A DNA stretch of 64,000 bases from an uncultured Alteromonadaceae bacterium (GTDB lineage Bacteria > Pseudomonadota > Gammaproteobacteria > Enterobacterales > Alteromonadaceae): the NCBI GenBank assembly GCA_938085045.1, contig CALKGI010000035.1, positions 1 through 64,000 on the forward strand, in the 5' to 3' direction. Below are positions 11,872 to 46,187 of the stretch, piece by piece; the first letter of the stretch is position 1; the number at the start of each line of letters is the position of its first letter. A model generated the notes under the pieces. The model worked only from the letters and a program-made list of their open reading frames with translations, ran no database searches and was not told where the DNA came from. The position numbers were made by a program, and so were the translations under genes.

Positions 11872-12159
11872 ATGAACAAAAGCAACATAACAGACTGGAT
11901 TTTGGCCTTTGCCCTATTTTTCAGCGTCACCGCTGCTACTACCTTTGCGAGTATCTGTTATGCCGTTAATTATCAGCCGCCACAGGCCTGTAACGGCGTG
12001 TTAAATAAAATCCATGGTAAAGATGCTAAAACCAAACTCAACTCGCAGGTGGGCGTTTTCATTGAAACCGTTCCCCCGCCCGATCCCATGTCACTCCCCC
12101 TTGCTATTTATCCCTTGATTGCACACCCAATCATTATTGATACCATCAAATTATCTTGA
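11872..12159 (+). CDS. Small single-membrane-span protein, unknown
   Basis: 95 residues. The N-terminus has one hydrophobic helix (WILAFALFFSVTAATTFASI) that could be a signal anchor. The remainder is short and proline-containing (VPPPDPMSLPLAIYPL) with two Cys. No strong Shine-Dalgarno is visible (CAGCTTAATC before the ATG). A good intrinsic terminator follows at 12195-12218, which supports a transcript ending here, but the frame may still be fortuitous. No family recognised. Confidence 0.45.
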   Translation: MNKSNITDWILAFALFFSVTAATTFASICYAVNYQPPQACNGVLNKIHGKDAKTKLNSQVGVFIETVPPPDPMSLPLAIYPLIAHPIIIDTIKLS

Positions 12160-12218: not shown

Positions 12219-12890
12219 CACGTTTTGAGCGAAGCTTGGATCAGTTAACACTATATTATTGGTAGTAGCGCCGTTTCGCCGCGATATTGGTCGCAGGCCA
12301 ATCAAAGAAATACAGGCTGCATCTATATTCCTTGCAAAAGATTATATCTTTCATCACCGCCTTTACCAAAGTTTCACTCTTAACTGACTGGCATTGAGAC
12401 TAAAGTCTTGCCTACGCTTTGGTAAAAACCACATTTGAGCTTAAGCTGTCGGGCATTTCAGATTAATTTTTCGCCATTCATCTACGTACATCCGTTTTCT
12501 AACGATCACCAAAAAGTTGGTGCAAAAAGATTGCTGTTTTGCGACAAACAGGGCAATTAAATGTCACTAATACTGATTGTATTTTCATTACGCCTACATC
12601 AAGCACTTTACTTAACTTGTCATCAGCAAATTCAGTGTTTGTATAAACAACGCGCAAAATCACCATACAACCCCGAAATCAACCCGTTCAACTCACTTTG
12701 TGGTTACGTGGCGGGTTACTGTCGGGTTTTTGTCAAAATACGATTTGTCACCAAGCTGAAAACCATTGTTTTTAAGACTGTAAACAAATGACATTACTAT
12801 CAAATTTTAACACTTTTTTCATTTTAAATTACCCCAACATTTAACTACAATCGCTTGATTTAAAACAACTTTTAACCCTTTGTCTTTTTA
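12219..12890. other. Gene-poor stretch with one nested inverted repeat
   Basis: No credible coding sequence. TTTACCAAAG (12362-12371) is perfectly complementary to CTTTGGTAAA (12417-12426) and encloses a second hairpin (GGCA..AGACT / AGTCT..TGCC, 12390-12412). A 76-codon frame at 12561 lacks a ribosome binding site and protein-like composition. The remainder is A/T-rich and otherwise featureless to the eye. Confidence 0.45.
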
Positions 12891-12917
12891 TTAACAAATA
12901 TTGACTTATTATTGATA
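12891..12917 (+). promoter_or_regulatory. Possible promoter of the GGA-rich RNA
   Basis: TTAACA (about 12891-12896) and TGATAA about 16 bp later give a sigma-70-like pair that would start transcription near 12925. A GTGAGATCCGTAAG sequence lies just downstream. It is a tentative assignment made because the RNA candidate needs a promoter here. Confidence 0.3.
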
Positions 12918-13094
12918 ACGTTTTGTCAGTGAGATCCGTAAGATGCATAACCAGTTACCAAGCAACAGCAACAAACTGTCAGCAAGTTAACACAAAGCAA
13001 AGTCAAAATGGACGCTGTATCAAGAGGAAAGGGAAGAAGTATATAAGGAAATTCAGATACAAAGGAAAAGGGTCATAAGGAAGATGTAATCGCT

Positions 13095-13378
13095 AAAAAG
13101 GAAGTCGTATAACGGAAGATGTATCAGCTAAAAAGGAAGTCGTATAACGGAAGATGTATCAGCTAAAAAGGAAGACGTATAACGGAAGATGTATCAGCTA
13201 AAAAGGAAGTCATATAACGGAAGATGTATCAGCTAAAAAAGGAAGTCGTATAACGGAAGATGTATCAGCTAAAAAAGGAAGACGTATAACGGAAGATGTA
13301 TCAGCTAAAAAAGGAAGACGTATAACGGAAGATGTATCAGCTAGAAAAGGAAGACGTTTAACGGAAGGTGTATCAGCT
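13095..13378 (+). repeat. Eight tandem 35/36-bp units, each with two GGA motifs
   Basis: Units start at 13095, 13130, 13165, 13200 (35 bp each) and 13235, 13271, 13307, 13343 (36 bp each, with one extra A in the A-run). Each has an A5-6 run, GGAAG(T/A)CGTATA, ACGGAAGATG and TATCAGCT. Degenerate half-units flank the array on both sides (from 13079, and 13379-13410). Length variation lies only in the A-run, as expected of slippage and unequal crossing-over. Confidence 0.9.
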
Positions 13379-13622
13379 GAAAAAGGAAGTTGTTAGTACG
13401 GATGGGTGTATTGAAGGAAGTAATATCGAGGGAACTGGGCATTAAGGAAGGCTTTTCGGCAGGATCATTGAACATCGGCAATTGCTGATGACAGTGATGG
13501 CCATAAGGAACGATGCTACCGGGTAAGGGCCGTAGCATAGAGTATTCAGGAAATGGAGTGTGTAGTTACCATCCGGGAGCAAACGTTACGTTCGCTTCCG
13601 GATGTGTATAAGGAATAGGGAA

Positions 13623-13783
13623 TATTGAGGCCTCGCTGCTACTTTTGAAATATGGGTATTTCATTAAAGGGGTTGGGGTAATAAAAATTCGGGTTCCTGC
13701 AAATTTTTATTGGACCAGAGTTTTAAAAAAGCGATTCGAAGGATAGTTGTACTATCCTCAAAGTAGTAGCGAGCGCCTCAATA
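13623..13783 (+). ncRNA. Closed multi-hairpin 3' domain of the RNA candidate
   Basis: Bases 13623-13645 pair with 13760-13783 as 23 base pairs with a single G-U and one bulged C (13774). Inside are three hairpins: GAAATA/TATTTC with a TGGG loop (13647-13662), AATAAAAATT/AATTTTTATT (13680-13711) and AGGATAGT/ACTATCCT with a TGT loop (13740-13758). Chance pairing of this extent is unlikely, so the segment very probably functions as folded RNA or as a cruciform. Confidence 0.65.
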
Positions 13784-13800
13784 AAGGATGTTTAACAACT

Positions 13801-13852
13801 AAAGAGCTGAATTTCTTGTTTAATTAAACAGGATTTTGGCTCTTTTTTTTGC
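13801..13852 (+). terminator. Strong intrinsic terminator of the RNA candidate
   Basis: AAAGAGC (13801-13807) pairs with GCTCTTT, followed by a run of eight T residues in total. The palindromic TGTTTAATTAAACA inside extends the stem-loop. Confidence 0.75.
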
Positions 13853-13878
13853 CTTTTTTTAACAGGCTTTTCTTTAGA

Positions 13879-13943: not shown

Positions 13944-13995
13944 TATTAAACGTATTGTGCCTTGGGCACCAATCGCTCGCTCCCACCATTGCCGC

Positions 13996-14082
13996 CCACC
14001 TTTTTCATAGGAATAACATGTGGCAGATCCACCTTTTTCATAGGAATAACATGTGACATATCCACCTTTTTCATAGGAATAA
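13996..14082 (+). repeat. Three 21-bp motifs at exact 33-bp period before a DUF4143 ATPase gene
   Basis: The 21-bp core (CCACC, T-run, CATAGGAATAA) begins at 13996, 14029 and 14062. The 12-bp spacers are partly conserved (CATGTGGCAGAT, CATGTGACATAT). The last core ends 65 bp before the ATPase ATG. The same core at the same period lies before the second DUF4143 gene (39993-40112), so this is a shared element, probably an operator or protein-binding array. The period is close to three helical turns, which would place all motifs on one DNA face. Confidence 0.85.
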
Positions 14083-14147
14083 GTTGTAAACACAACACTG
14101 TTTTGCTAATTTTAAGCAAGTGTTCACCCAAAAATACGATGGAAAAC

Positions 14148-15458
14148 ATGCAAAGACTGTTGTTGTCACAACTACTTGAATGGCAAGCTCAGGCTACCCG
14201 CAAGCCTGTTTTGCTCGATGGCGCTAGGCAAACAGGTAAGTCATATCTACTCAAAGAACTCTTTGGTAAACGCCATTTTACTCAGTGTCATGTCGTCGAC
14301 TTTTTAAAGCAACCTGATGCCGCGCAGTTATTTGAGCAAGACCTTGACCCGCATAGGATCATTAGCGATCTGGGATTTTTTCTTAAAAAAGACATTAACC
14401 CTACAACCGATTTGGTGATTTTTGACGAAATTGGTGAATGTCATAAAGCCGTTCAATCACTCAAGTATTTTGCCGAAGACCAACCAAATTGGTTTATTTG
14501 TAGCACGGGTTCTAACATTGGCCTGCTTAATGGTTTTCCGGTTGGCAAAGTGCATGGGCTGAGGTTGCGCCCAATGAACTTTGAGGAGTTTTTATGGGCC
14601 ACCGCCAACAAACAGCAACAAGCAGCCTTTGACCGGCAAGACAGGCGCACACTGGTACACAAACAACTGTGGCCATTGCTTTGTGACTACTTTTTTGTGG
14701 GTGGCATGCCTGAGGCGGTGTTTCGTTGGGTGGCCAGTAAAGATCAACCGTTGCTAACCCGTCATCAGCAGGTGCGGCATATTCAGCGTGATATTCTAAA
14801 TGGTTATGAGCGCGACTTTGGTAAATACTCAGGCCAGGTTAACGCCTTGTATATTGATCAAGTATTTAAAAACGTCAGCACTCAACTACAAAAAAATATG
14901 GATGGTTCGGTTAAGCGATTTGCTTTTAACAATATTATTGAAAAGAAAAAAACCTACCGTGACTTTGCCAGTATCATCGGCTGGCTTGAGTCCACCCTAT
15001 TGATATCAAAGTGTTATGTCATTAACCAAAAACCTCGATTGCCGTTAAAGTCAGGCCGTAAAGACAGCTTTTTCAAACTGTTTCACCTTGATGTGGGTTT
15101 GTTGTGCTGTGATTTGGCCATTAACATGTCGGCATTGAATATGGGAGACGTCATATATAAAGGCCCCATCTGCGAAAATTTTGTTCAAAACGAATTACTC
15201 AGCTACGGCCTCAATGAAACCTATAGTTGGTCTGAAAATACCGCCGAAATCGAGTTTATTGTTGAATCAAAAGGCACCATCACCCCAGTTGAAGTCAAAT
15301 CAGGCATAAACACCAAAGCCAAAAGCCTACAGTCATATAAACAAAGATATCATCCAGATAAAACATTGAAGCTGATTGGGGCCGTAGGCGGCACAGATGA
15401 AGCAGATCAAGTTTTTCCGCTTTATTATGCCAATATCTTGAAGCGCATTATCGAATAA
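14148..15458 (+). CDS. DUF4143-family AAA ATPase (COG1373-like), copy A
   Basis: 436 residues. The P-loop is LLDGARQTGKSYLL near residues 22-35 and Walker B is LVIFDEIGECHKA. The DUF4143 C-terminal half ends with a restriction-enzyme-like core (NTAEIEFIVES, then TPVEVKSG). The family is common in bacteria and archaea; its role is unknown, with DNA-related or toxin/defence-like roles suspected. The frame is open back to 13962, but that extension only translates the upstream repeats. The ATG at 14148 aligns exactly with the start of copy B (MQRLLLSQLLEWQ versus MKRALLDTLVQWK). The start at 14139 is an alternative. Confidence 0.88.
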   Translation: MQRLLLSQLLEWQAQATRKPVLLDGARQTGKSYLLKELFGKRHFTQCHVVDFLKQPDAAQLFEQDLDPHRIISDLGFFLKKDINPTTDLVIFDEIGECHKAVQSLKYFAEDQPNWFICSTGSNIGLLNGFPVGKVHGLRLRPMNFEEFLWATANKQQQAAFDRQDRRTLVHKQLWPLLCDYFFVGGMPEAVFRWVASKDQPLLTRHQQVRHIQRDILNGYERDFGKYSGQVNALYIDQVFKNVSTQLQKNMDGSVKRFAFNNIIEKKKTYRDFASIIGWLESTLLISKCYVINQKPRLPLKSGRKDSFFKLFHLDVGLLCCDLAINMSALNMGDVIYKGPICENFVQNELLSYGLNETYSWSENTAEIEFIVESKGTITPVEVKSGINTKAKSLQSYKQRYHPDKTLKLIGAVGGTDEADQVFPLYYANILKRIIE

Positions 15459-20269: not shown

Positions 20270-20374
20270 CACTCGGGTTATAGAAATAAGAGATATCTCA
20301 CGCACAAGCTATCTTGCAATATATCGTAATGTCGGTAATCTTCACAGTTATCGACACTTAACAACATACAAACC

Positions 20375-27872: not shown

Positions 27873-30512
27873 TTAAGACCGCCCAAAATTCACAAAGAGG
27901 TGAAAGATATCGCGATTGCCATTGCGCGTTCTACCCGTTTTAACATTGTCTTTGCCGCTGTCGGCTTCGCTGCAATCTTTAAAATCAGCAAAATGCGTCT
28001 GATACTTTTGCCATAAGCCAGCAAAGTCTTTAGCTTTGACATACACCAATATAAAGTTTCGTTGATTGCCTGTGGTGTCGTATTTTGCTGCCAACTTTTT
28101 ATAATGACGGTCTATCACAGTGGTACTTAGACTTTTAAGAATAAAGCCCTCTATTATGCTTTCGGCAATACCTGTTTGGCTGTTTCTAATGACAAAATCT
28201 CTTTCACCACTGCCTTTTCCCGTTTCCGACTCACCGCCTCTGGCTTGGTCACTGACAATATATTTGCGATTCATCAAGGCCATTTTAAATCGGTCATTGG
28301 TTTGATTTTCGCTGTCGGTATTTATAGCGTGACGGTTTTCAGTCTCTAACAAAGAGATTTCAATCAGGTCTTGAGTTAGTTGCCTATAGTTAAAATGCGT
28401 ATCATCTTTGATTCGATAACCATCGAGCAGTGCTTCAATGTTAAAAGTATGGATTTTTTTCTTAGCATTCAAAATCGGTAGCGGGATATCCTTATGGCCC
28501 TCTTTTTCACACTCTATCAGGTAATCGTAATCCACATATCCAACCAGTTGATTTTCAAGCATCAACAGTACTTCTTCATCACAGGTCAGGGTTTGAGCAT
28601 TAACAATTCGGATGGTATGACGAATGATGATCAACAACTCTTTACCTGCACGAGAATCGGTATCAACAGCAATGGTGATGGTTTTCTTCACTTCATCTGC
28701 TATCACCACAGCGTTACAGTCTCGGTGTTGTAAAAATACACCTCTTTGCCAGTATTTGAGTGCGGCCTTGGTGATGTAGCTTTTCATTTTGACAATAAAT
28801 TGCGAAATGACGCTTTTTTTCAACAAATCATGATAGTGGAATCTAAAATTCAGGCCGGTCTGAAAGTCAGCCAACGCAAAATCTGGCTGAATTGGACTGA
28901 GTCTTGAGGGCAGTAAAATAGTGGTGTCATCAATCGAAAAAGACAATTCAAACTGATTCAGCAAGTCTTGCAACCAGTTATATTGACGAAGCTTATAATT
29001 AGTATCATAGCGAAAAATCGCCTGAAGCTGGCTGTAAACAAGCAGTGCGCTACTGTCTACCAACTCAGAACGGATGATTTTGTAAACCCCGTTGGTAACC
29101 CAATGCGGGTTTATAATTTGCATTGCACTGAGTCGACGATTATCTTTGTAGGTCACAACAGTGCCAATTTGATTGAGAATGGTCAGCAGAGTGTCCTGTA
29201 ACCGTTCGTTTATAATGCCATTGTCAACGCATAAAACTTCATACTCGTCACTTTCAATATAATCTTCCTCCCCTGTCGACATCGCCTCAAGTACGTCTTT
29301 TACCCTTGCCCAGCTTGGCGGCAACGGAAACTTGATATCTTCTAGTGCCCTAACATGTTGTCCAATACACTGAGTTAAATCATTAATGGTATGATGAATT
29401 TTACTTTTTATTTCAGCGTTTATCGCTTCGTCGTTTTCAGCGCTCAGATACAGTACATCAACAATATTAAACTCATCTTTGTAGCGGTTTAAGTCAAAAA
29501 TATAACTGGTATTCAAATCTCTTTTATTGACCACCACTATGATGGGCGAGCTGTCGCTATTGGCTTTTATTACGCTGAGCCAATGGAAAATACCCGAATC
29601 ATTATCTTCTTTTTGTGAATCAAGCACATACACATATAAACTTCTGGTACTAAGAAAAAACTGATGGGTTTGCTGGGCTATCTCTTGGCCTGCAAAATCC
29701 CAAATATTGACTTGAATGTCATTGGCAAGCGCGCGTTTTTGAATATCTATACCCAATGTGGTTTTTTGATTGGGGTTATGCCGATGACCTAAAACGCGAT
29801 TAATCAAAGAGGTTTTACCGACACGCTCATCACCAACTACCAGAACTTTGGCTTCATTGAGTGGTTTGGTCTTTTCACCTTGAACTTCCAACAGGTAAGT
29901 GACCAATTCCTGTGTGCTCAAATTGTCTTCTATGCCTTTTAGGTGCTTTGTGATCGGATTATTGAATAAATCAAGAGTGTCTGTATCTTTCAATTGAATG
30001 ATCGATTCAGGTAGGCGGGTCAAACTATTTTCACTTAGTCCTAAATAATCTAAGTTTTGCAGCTTACCAATCGTTTCTGGCAGGCACGTTAAATTATTTT
30101 CACTTAACCCTAGATAATTTAAGTTTCGCAGCTTGCCAATTGTCTCAGGCAGGCACCTCAGATTATTAGACTCCAAATCGAGTGCTGTCAGGCTCTGTAG
30201 CTTAACAATCGATTTCGGCAGACTGACCAGATTATTATCTTCCAGATTGATCACCGTCAAGTTGTGAAGTTGACCAATAGATTCGGGTAATTCAGATAGG
30301 TTATTTGATTGTAAATTCAGTTCTGTCAAAGTTGAAATGTTGCAGATAGTGTCAATATCAATATCACTACAATAGTTAATTGCAAGATGAGTCAGTTGAT
30401 TCTCATCATCTAAGAAATATGCATTTTCGCTTTCAGTGTCAAAGATATCGACTTCTTCCAAACCTTTCAAAATTGCTTGCAAAGAAAACTGCTTATTATC
30501 AATCAAAGTCAC
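27873..30512 (-). CDS. Roco protein: LRR - Ras-like GTPase - COR, with C-terminal extension
   Basis: 879 residues. Residues 60-190 are five to six 23-residue LRRs (LTELNLQSNNLSELPESIGQ type). The Roc GTPase follows with P-loop GDERVGKTS (227-235), switch II WDFAGQE and G4 VVNKRDL. The COR region (PHWVTNGVYKIIRSE, then EVLLMLENQLVGYVDYDYLIECE) comes next. The last ~118 residues contain GERDFVIRNSQTGIAESIIEGF, reminiscent of a nuclease-like or signalling core seen at the end of some bacterial NTPases. Bacterial Roco proteins are cytoplasmic dimeric GTPases of mostly unknown function. It is divergent from the ECF sigma operon and is soluble. Confidence 0.85.
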   Translation of the reverse strand: MTLIDNKQFSLQAILKGLEEVDIFDTESENAYFLDDENQLTHLAINYCSDIDIDTICNISTLTELNLQSNNLSELPESIGQLHNLTVINLEDNNLVSLPKSIVKLQSLTALDLESNNLRCLPETIGKLRNLNYLGLSENNLTCLPETIGKLQNLDYLGLSENSLTRLPESIIQLKDTDTLDLFNNPITKHLKGIEDNLSTQELVTYLLEVQGEKTKPLNEAKVLVVGDERVGKTSLINRVLGHRHNPNQKTTLGIDIQKRALANDIQVNIWDFAGQEIAQQTHQFFLSTRSLYVYVLDSQKEDNDSGIFHWLSVIKANSDSSPIIVVVNKRDLNTSYIFDLNRYKDEFNIVDVLYLSAENDEAINAEIKSKIHHTINDLTQCIGQHVRALEDIKFPLPPSWARVKDVLEAMSTGEEDYIESDEYEVLCVDNGIINERLQDTLLTILNQIGTVVTYKDNRRLSAMQIINPHWVTNGVYKIIRSELVDSSALLVYSQLQAIFRYDTNYKLRQYNWLQDLLNQFELSFSIDDTTILLPSRLSPIQPDFALADFQTGLNFRFHYHDLLKKSVISQFIVKMKSYITKAALKYWQRGVFLQHRDCNAVVIADEVKKTITIAVDTDSRAGKELLIIIRHTIRIVNAQTLTCDEEVLLMLENQLVGYVDYDYLIECEKEGHKDIPLPILNAKKKIHTFNIEALLDGYRIKDDTHFNYRQLTQDLIEISLLETENRHAINTDSENQTNDRFKMALMNRKYIVSDQARGGESETGKGSGERDFVIRNSQTGIAESIIEGFILKSLSTTVIDRHYKKLAAKYDTTGNQRNFILVYVKAKDFAGLWQKYQTHFADFKDCSEADSGKDNVKTGRTRNGNRDIFHLFVNFGRS

Positions 30513-39992: not shown

Positions 39993-40112
39993 CCCACTTT
40001 TGGATAGGAATAATTCTTACAAAAACCCACTTTTGGATAGGAATAACCCTTGAAAAACCCCACTTTTTGACAGGAATAATTCTTACAAAAACCCACTTTT
40101 TGATAGGAATAA
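39993..40112 (+). repeat. Four 21-bp motifs at exact 33-bp period before the second DUF4143 gene
   Basis: The cores begin at 39993, 40026, 40059 and 40092 and read CCCACTTTT, G/T, GATAGGAATAA (third copy GACAGG). Three 12-bp spacers separate them; two are identical (TTCTTACAAAAA) and one is CCCTTGAAAAAC. Core and period match the array at 13996-14082. Relative to its gene the array is inverted: the ATPase reads leftward while the motif is oriented rightward. Confidence 0.88.
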
Positions 40113-43919: not shown

Positions 43920-46187
43920 ATGAATAAAAAAGTACCTCAACTTGTCATTGCCTCGATGCTCACACTTGGCGCATCAGCCAGTGCAGTTGCCGCAGATACC
44001 ACAAACACTACATCACCACAAACCTCTGTTGTTAACACAGCACCAGTGGGCGATGCTGGTCGCGATGATACGGTCGCCGCCAATACATATTACGCTCTTA
44101 ATGGCAGTAACAGCCACGATGCTGAGGGCGCTGAATTGACTTATCTTTGGATGCAAACTGGTGGACCTGCTGTAGATATTTTTGCACCGCAGTCGCCAAA
44201 CCCCGGTTTTGTTTCACCAAATGTCACCAGCGACCAAACTTTAACTTTCTCTTTAGACGTTTTTGACGGCAAATTGCGCGGCGAAACGGTTTTCGTCAAT
44301 ATTCTAGTTAAAGCTGACAATCAAGCACCAGTTGCTGATGCAGGACGTGATGATACAGTTGCCTCAAACACCTATTACCCACTTAATGGCAGCAACAGTC
44401 ACGACCCTGAAGGCGATGAATTAACTTACCACTGGATTCAAACAGCAGGTCCTTCGGTTGATATTTTTGCACCACAGTCGCCAAACCCAGGTTTTGTTTC
44501 TCCAAACGTCACCAGCAACGAAACATTGACTTTTGCTCTGAATGTATTTGATGGTGAGTTATACAGCGAAACGGTATTCGTTAATATTTTAGTTACCGGG
44601 CTCAATCAAGCACCTATTGCAGATGCTGGCCGCGACGACACAGTAGCACCTAACACTTATTACCCGCTCAATGGCAGCAACAGTCACGACCCTGAAGGTG
44701 AAGGTTTAACCTACCACTGGATACAAACGGCAGGTCCTTCGGTTGATATTTTTGCACCACAATCACCAAACCCGGGTTTTGTTTCACCTAACGTTACCAC
44801 CAACCAAACTTTAACATTCGCCTTGAATGTGTTTGATGGTGAACTTTACAGCGAAACCGTATTCGTCAACATCTTGGTAAAAGTCGCAAACCTAGCGCCT
44901 GTTGCCGATGCCGGTCGTGATGACACTGTCGACGAAAATGCCTATTACGCATTAAATGGCAGCAACAGTTTCGACCCTGAAGGCGCAGAACTGACTTACC
45001 ACTGGATACAAGTTGCCGGCCCTGCGGTTGATATTTTTGCACCTGAATCACCAAACCCAGGGTTTGTTGCACCTAGTGTTGATTCTACTCAAACACTGAC
45101 TTTCGCTTTGAATGTTTTTGATGGCGAACTGCGCAGCGACACTGCAATGGTCAACATTGTGATCAACAAAAACAATGAAGCACCAATCGCCGATGCGGGT
45201 GACAATAGCAACATGAAACAAGGTGGTTCAGCCACTTTAAATGGCACAGCAAGTTATGACCCAGAAGGTCTTGATATCGCCAGCTACCAGTGGACACAAG
45301 TTAGTGGGCCTTTGGCTTTGTTGATGAACACCACCAGTGCAAACCCAACCTACGTTGCACCAGTTGGCGTAAGCGGCACCATGGTATTTCAGTTGCAAGT
45401 CAGTGACGGTGTTAAAACCAGCGCGCTTTCAGCCTTGCCAGACAGCAATGTTGCTGGTGACGATTTAGTGAGTGTGACCATCACCCAAAACAATGCCCCA
45501 ATTGCTGATGCAGGACAAGATCAAAGCAAAAATGAAGGCAGTGTAGTAGTGATGGATGCTCGCGCAAGCTTCGACCCAGACCGTGACCCAATCAGCTATC
45601 AATGGGCGCAGGTTTCAGGCACGCCAGTAACATTCAACACCAACTCAATTGCCACGCCAAGCTTCACAGCACCAGCAACAACTGGTGGCGAAGCATTGGT
45701 ATTTTCAGTAACAATTACTGACAACGATTCGGTTAATCCAAAATCAACAACTGACACTGTTGTGGTTAACGTATTAGACGTTAACGCACCACCAAGCTGT
45801 GATTTGGCAACCGCATCACCAGATGCTTTATGGCCACCAAACCACAAATTGAAGCCAGTCGAAATTTATGGCGTAACCGATAATGATGCAACGTACAACA
45901 ACGTGACAATTCGTATCAACAGCGTTACTCAAGACGAAGCAATTAATGGCAAAGGCGATGGTAATACCTCTCCAGATGCGATTATTCTGCCTGGTACTAC
46001 ACTCGACAGCGCAATGATCCGCGCCGAACGTGCTCGCAAAGGTGATGGCCGTGTTTACACCATCAACTTCACTGCTGATGACGGCTTCGAGAACTGTACT
46101 GGTTCAGTCACTGTTGGCGTACCAGCCAAGCGCAAGTCTACTGCGGTTGACAGTGGTTTGACTGTTGATTCTACAACTGAAGAGTAA
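43920..46187 (+). CDS. Secreted PKD/Ig-like repeat protein
   Basis: 755 residues with a signal peptide (VIASMLTLGASASAVAADT). Four consecutive 95-residue repeats (each starting APxADAGRDDTV and containing LNGSNS, DIFAPxSPNPGFV and LxVFDGxL) are very alike, followed by two diverged PKD-like domains (ADAGDNSNMKQGGSATLNG; ADAGQDQSKNEGSVVVMDA). The C-terminal domain has the WPPNHKLKPVEI motif found at the end of several surface proteins. Likely adhesive or structural outside the cell. AAAGGAAGACACC serves as binding site; a strong terminator follows. Confidence 0.87.
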   Translation: MNKKVPQLVIASMLTLGASASAVAADTTNTTSPQTSVVNTAPVGDAGRDDTVAANTYYALNGSNSHDAEGAELTYLWMQTGGPAVDIFAPQSPNPGFVSPNVTSDQTLTFSLDVFDGKLRGETVFVNILVKADNQAPVADAGRDDTVASNTYYPLNGSNSHDPEGDELTYHWIQTAGPSVDIFAPQSPNPGFVSPNVTSNETLTFALNVFDGELYSETVFVNILVTGLNQAPIADAGRDDTVAPNTYYPLNGSNSHDPEGEGLTYHWIQTAGPSVDIFAPQSPNPGFVSPNVTTNQTLTFALNVFDGELYSETVFVNILVKVANLAPVADAGRDDTVDENAYYALNGSNSFDPEGAELTYHWIQVAGPAVDIFAPESPNPGFVAPSVDSTQTLTFALNVFDGELRSDTAMVNIVINKNNEAPIADAGDNSNMKQGGSATLNGTASYDPEGLDIASYQWTQVSGPLALLMNTTSANPTYVAPVGVSGTMVFQLQVSDGVKTSALSALPDSNVAGDDLVSVTITQNNAPIADAGQDQSKNEGSVVVMDARASFDPDRDPISYQWAQVSGTPVTFNTNSIATPSFTAPATTGGEALVFSVTITDNDSVNPKSTTDTVVVNVLDVNAPPSCDLATASPDALWPPNHKLKPVEIYGVTDNDATYNNVTIRINSVTQDEAINGKGDGNTSPDAIILPGTTLDSAMIRAERARKGDGRVYTINFTADDGFENCTGSVTVGVPAKRKSTAVDSGLTVDSTTEE

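Follow-up and report, generated by a model that had tools for sequence, protein, structure and literature searches.

Csr decoy RNAs vary widely among bacteria, and the gain and loss of their CsrA sites have been little studied. The accessible text of PMC7652899 gives ANGGA as the known core of a CsrA site and hairpin loops as its favoured context, and describes a CsrA dimer as bridging sites at distances of 10-63 nt, best at about 18 nt; the hairpin context is not strictly required. Three functional Csr sRNAs of Pseudoalteromonas fuliginea, a member of a related genus, are Pf1, Pf2 and Pf3; they carry 25, 21 and 9 GGA and bind CsrA, according to the part of PMC11882849 that is accessible. Duplication of decoy genes is described for csrB in Vibrio tasmaniensis (PMC6262261, accessible part) and for rsmX in Pseudomonas brassicacearum, for which a link between GGA number and RNA stability was also proposed (PMC7911923, accessible part).

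The window analysed here is a stretch of 64,000 nucleotides from an uncultured marine Alteromonadaceae bacterium, whose own genome (G000) consists of 317 contigs and is 81% complete. It was compared with a sister species (G001, 87% complete); the sets searched contain no further genome of the genus, so that each species is represented by one genome. The best explanation of the locus is probably a CsrB-like CsrA decoy RNA, in which a tandem array provides amplified sites and its units turn over. The locus shares with CsrB and CsrC of Escherichia coli (Rfam model RF00018) the intergenic position, the many GGA sites, a CsrA encoded in the genome and, presumably, sequestration; it differs in that no model match and no UvrY box were found, in the open array, in the length of about 925 nt and in the 39 GGA. 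With Pf1-Pf3 it has in common three predicted Csr sRNAs per genome, many GGA and poor conservation outside the genus, whereas CsrA binding was tested for Pf1-Pf3, amplified units are not reported in the accessible text (PMC11882849) and the present RNAs are predictions from sequence. As in V. tasmaniensis and P. brassicacearum, decoy dosage would be altered by duplication, of whole genes there (PMC6262261 and PMC7911923, accessible parts) and of modules inside the RNA here. No description of tandem units inside CsrB was found in the literature searched, mostly outside subscription journals, and the novelty appears to lie in this mode of change, tandem modules inside a decoy.

Limits and conserved parts of the RNA gene

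The GGA-rich region is intergenic, flanked by a small ORF (11872-12159) on one side and an ATPase-like ORF (listed frame 13962-15458) on the other. Its densest 400-base stretch contains 24 GGA, where the average over the window with both strands counted is 2.0 (sd 2.0), and at most 13 GGA per 400 bases were observed in the window outside 12900-13870. The whole RNA contains 32 ANGGA against 8.2 +/- 2.5 (largest 15) in 500 dinucleotide shuffles, and the RNA minus the array contains 13 against 4.7 +/- 2.0 (largest 11) in shuffles. The initial annotation had placed the feature at 13095-13378; the array is located there with slightly wider limits, while the GGA-rich RNA is far wider, from about 12926 to 13850. 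The features, all on the forward strand, are as follows.

12891..12919, + strand: proposed sigma-70-type promoter, TTAACA-17-GATAAC, seen when the three paralogues of both species are aligned
12926..13850, + strand: proposed CsrB-like decoy RNA gene, 39 GGA, 32 ANGGA, with an orthologue in the sister species
12948..12959, + strand: conserved block TAACCAGTTACC close to the predicted 5' end of the RNA, identical in 6/6 copies
13079..13402, + strand: tandem array of 4 x 35 bp and 4 x 36 bp units followed by a ninth, diverged one, each unit with two ANGGA-type sites
13403..13622, + strand: 3' half with more GGA at irregular spacing and predicted hairpins, from sister-species alignment and fold
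13674..13711, + strand: conserved 3' hairpin with loop CGGGTTCCTGC, common to paralogue B
13801..13850, + strand: putative intrinsic terminator, a long A+T-rich hairpin whose base is GAGC/GCTC, together with a T run, predicted stem kept in the sister species

The 5' end of the RNA, and with it the length, was derived from the proposed promoter. The sequence TTATTATTGATAAC in the promoter block is identical in all six copies (three paralogues, two species), and the -35 place of the other copies reads TTGACA or TTGATA. Promoter and terminator were both assigned from alignment and fold; the promoter was absent from a simple consensus scan, which demands T at the last -10 position, and the terminator hairpin was likewise unlisted by the simple scan. 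The 3' hairpin showed 97% identity over 38 bases to paralogue B in both species, the rest having diverged. One of the few TCC of the RNA is carried by the CGGGTTCCTGC loop, which could thereby pair with GGA sites or with mRNAs. In the alignment with the sister species, 5 of the 66 GGA positions outside the array were changed against 93 of 574 other positions (p 0.04), a weak conservation and a rough count, as one GGA-rich stretch looks misaligned.

The window also contains other tandem repeats. A 33-bp family with the core CTTTTNNATAGGAATAA has three copies at 14000-14082 and four at 39997-40112, a total of seven that was reached by 0/100 shuffles; among four genomes searched it was restricted to the genus, with six exact places in the window's own genome, all in the window, and two in the sister species. 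A 69-bp repeat at 30001-30167 (2.4 copies by TRF) resembles by eye leucine-rich-repeat coding sequence on the minus strand, and a 285-bp repeat at 44039-45200 (about 4 copies by TRF) resembles by eye part of a large surface protein in which extracellular domains recur.

Array units, their GGA sites and the Csr system

The tandem array was detected by TRF at 13075-13390 with a period of 36, 8.9 copies, 94% match and a score of 515. Cutting at GGAAG[AG]TGTA gave eight full units of 35, 35, 35, 35, 36, 36, 36 and 36 bp followed by the diverged ninth, and each unit contains two GGA, the spacing alternating between 14 and 21/22 nt. Thus the eight-unit 35/36-bp array with two GGA each, as initially annotated, was borne out by both TRF and unit cutting. 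The same annotation was wrong in stating that the units vary only in an A5/A6 run: over 18 full units from the window and the sister species, 11 of 36 columns vary, including GTCG/GACG, TCGTAT/TCATAT and differences in the last units. The GGA columns were unchanged across the 18 units, while 11 of the 30 remaining columns vary, a difference which is not significant alone (about 0.09 by our own arithmetic).

The presence of an ATG in every unit and of a 51-codon frame from TTG at 12923-13078 would suit a translated repeat or small-peptide locus, a reading with next to no probability. The 35-bp units shift the frame, TAA directly follows ATG in the units of the sister species, and the 51-codon frame meets an early TAA there, as read off the alignment; on these grounds coding was rejected, and the non-coding test revealed no conserved frame. 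The absence of a shared reading frame had been correctly noted, since in the units of the sister species each ATG opens a frame that consists of ATG-TAA alone.

The folding of the array RNA was worse than that of 100/100 shuffles (z +2.24) and its centroid had no pairs, which indicates that the sites are open and not in hairpin loops. The placement of GGA in hairpin loops expected of a CsrA decoy was thus not found in the array. The mean GGA unpaired value was 0.62 for the whole RNA, compared to 0.80 and 0.83 for the canonical csrB of two relatives. The mean spacing of GGA in the array, 17.5-18 nt, fits both the bridging range and the optimum of CsrA, which would let a single dimer span two adjacent sites.

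The proteins of the system were searched in both genomes. csrA was identified above cut-off at about 90 bits in both (contig C257 in G000, C883 in G001); the window's genome has this one csrA, coding for 65 aa from the ML start and nearly identical to the CsrA of relatives. BarA (1104 bits) and UvrY (399 bits) were found in the window's genome, and BarA also in the sister species, where UvrY above cut-off was not found in the 87% complete assembly. The UvrY contig had been considered as contamination owing to its high score; this was dropped, as a split match in another genome (G014) sums to a similar score.

The sequence TGTAAGANATNTCTTACA, which we take to be the UvrY box, is also visible in relatives, and the csrB of one of them (L031) has it with 1 mismatch. 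The nearest such box in the window has 4 mismatches and lies at 20285, 7 kb off, and none within 4 mismatches was present at the five other loci of the three RNAs. This absence near the RNAs suggests that their control may differ from the usual. A near-palindromic, roughly conserved element like CTGTNAAAAANTGAC is located at about 12800-12830, around 100 bases upstream of the promoter, and at the same upstream distance in most paralogue copies; it may be a binding site in place of the UvrY box.

At the gathering score RF00018 gave no match in the window, in its genome or in the sister species. Membership of RF00018 is therefore not found, and the model is weak throughout the family: 0/157 genomes reach the cut-off and 46/157 match at E 1e-5. 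The best of all Rfam scans of window and locus was a plastid 3' UTR hairpin at 26 bits, far below cut-off. Family relatives carry an ordinary csrB with GGA in hairpins.

The earlier proposal of an array inside a decoy RNA thus stands as regards the CsrB-like RNA, the ANGGA excess and the encoded CsrA, BarA and UvrY, while RF00018, the UvrY box and the hairpins did not bear it out. There is good support for the RNA working like a CsrA decoy, as far as sequence can indicate. It is very unlikely that the GGA-rich array mimics a Shine-Dalgarno sequence and titrates ribosomes or another RNA-binding protein instead of CsrA. Although AAAGGAAG looks by eye like a Shine-Dalgarno sequence, ANGGA is the known CsrA core (PMC7652899, accessible text), CsrA is encoded, and the ordinary csrB of relatives has the same trinucleotide in hairpins. 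In the CsrA decoy reading, CsrA dimers would bind the many single-stranded ANGGA sites of the RNA and be kept off mRNAs, and the 35/36-bp array would be an amplified linear block of CsrA sites, two per unit. We infer that the RNA is transcribed, that CsrA binds to it and that more units would give more sequestration.

Paralogues and turnover of units between sister species

The RNA as query revealed two further places in the window's genome which share the promoter block, paralogue B on contig C168 and paralogue C on contig C38. Paralogue B also carries the 3' hairpin, and paralogue C runs off the contig end inside a 19-bp array. All three RNAs, the window copy being A, were also found in the sister species. 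The promoter pattern occurs in 3/295 family genomes, these being the two species and one apparent chance match (G048), which had no GGA density in the 800 bases inspected. A match of the query at 907-939 in another genome (G003) was a short terminator-like stretch.

The units differ between paralogues: those of A are 35/36 bp, those of B are 44 bp with three GGA each, and C has both 30-bp and 19-bp units, either kind with two GGA. The counts also differ between species, those of the sister species being lower bounds and the copy numbers uncertain because the assemblies are fragmented. Paralogue A has 9 units in the window, possibly itself collapsed in this fragmented assembly, against at least 11-12 in the sister species, where the array is split over two contigs, one with 5 units, the last of them partial, and one with 7; the units at the contig ends differ in sequence, which gives the minimum of 11-12. 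Paralogue B has 23 GGA in about 560 nt in the window's genome, and its counterpart in the sister species has at least 42 over a length of at least 861 nt. For paralogue C the GGA counted by eye before the conserved hairpin number 2 in the window's genome and 24 in the sister species.

A5 units precede A6 units in paralogue A of either species, which makes the array ancestral. The mean difference between units was 2.15 within species and 3.49 between them, a gap reached by 0/2000 label shuffles, and TCA in the unit core was present in 7/8 window units and 0/10 units of the sister species. Units being closer within species than between, the array has turned over since the species split. Slippage, or equally well unequal recombination, would add and remove units and homogenise them. 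By this process the RNA length and site number would shift quickly, while promoter, 3' domain and terminator would stay.

The contigs of both assemblies break inside such arrays, a sign of strained assembly, and the array might be an assembly artefact, a mobile element or protein-binding repeats acting as DNA. This is most improbable: the same promoter block and 3' parts flank the arrays in two species and three paralogues, the two assemblies agree on the A5-then-A6 order, and the phage records searched gave no match.

It had been proposed at the outset that copy number would set the sequestering capacity and that slippage could tune regulation between strains. The copy-number idea is supported between species, where the unit number of A differs while the RNA is kept, and such between-species variation is the trace that strain-level tuning would leave. 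Multiplication of a unit to different extents in sister species suggests that repeat expansion may alter the strength of a regulatory sponge.

Module amplification in other csrB RNAs

Tandem GGA units of at least 2.5 copies were found in 5/52 CsrB loci of the family and order; this survey covered a subset of all CsrB matches, required GGA in the unit and included one locus (L042) of only 149 bases. In genus g3 a CsrB match was found in 10/13 genomes, one of which (G003) repeats a 26-bp hairpin unit 5.8 times; units of at least 3 copies were absent from the other nine loci of this genus, among which a 38-bp unit reaches 2.3 copies in L079. In genus g61 a CsrB match was found in 21/22 genomes, with 24 loci counted as 21 genomes because three of the loci (L128, L129 and L130) lie in genomes that another locus already represents. 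A 49-52-bp two-hairpin module was present at 3.1-7.4 copies in 10/21 of these genomes and absent in 11/21. Ten array-free loci align to the array-free L104 along nearly the whole locus (82-87%), and the ten array-bearing loci match it at 73-75% across some 0.9-1.2 kb of downstream flank, which indicates that the loci with and without array are one locus.

The copies within one g61 array match at 85-96%, while the consensus modules differ between species (identity 0.63-0.98); judged from these sequences, the modules are homogenised species by species as in the paralogue A array. Their paired stems differ between species and stay complementary (by eye, consensus units). The tandem GGA-site modules inside the csrB of g61, G003 and G059 are thus like the present array in that number and sequence are species-wise, and differ from it in being hairpins with CAGGAYG-like loops where the array here has open sites.

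These comparisons also bear on the possibility, which we consider doubtful, that the RNA is a CsrA decoy and its array selectively neutral, with sites far exceeding CsrA and a unit number that drifts without regulatory effect. The arrays vary freely between species, the three paralogues suggest redundancy, and related genera do without arrays (11/21 in g61). However, the GGA are unchanged in the 18 units (weak alone), the g61 stems diverge yet stay complementary, and several csrB RNAs acquired arrays independently. We propose tentatively that Csr decoys can be contingency loci, with modules that would expand and contract quickly enough to differ between strains and give graded, heritable control, the modules of this genus having moreover exchanged hairpins for open sites at even spacing.

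Modules inside a decoy RNA have been amplified in at least two ways: the present genus has open units, other genera have hairpin modules, and a single locus in g61 carries anywhere from 0 to 7.4 copies. If the contingency reading is true, global post-transcriptional control would be reset without touching CsrA, promoters or targets. If module number sets capacity, the module count in assemblies would predict regulatory set-points.
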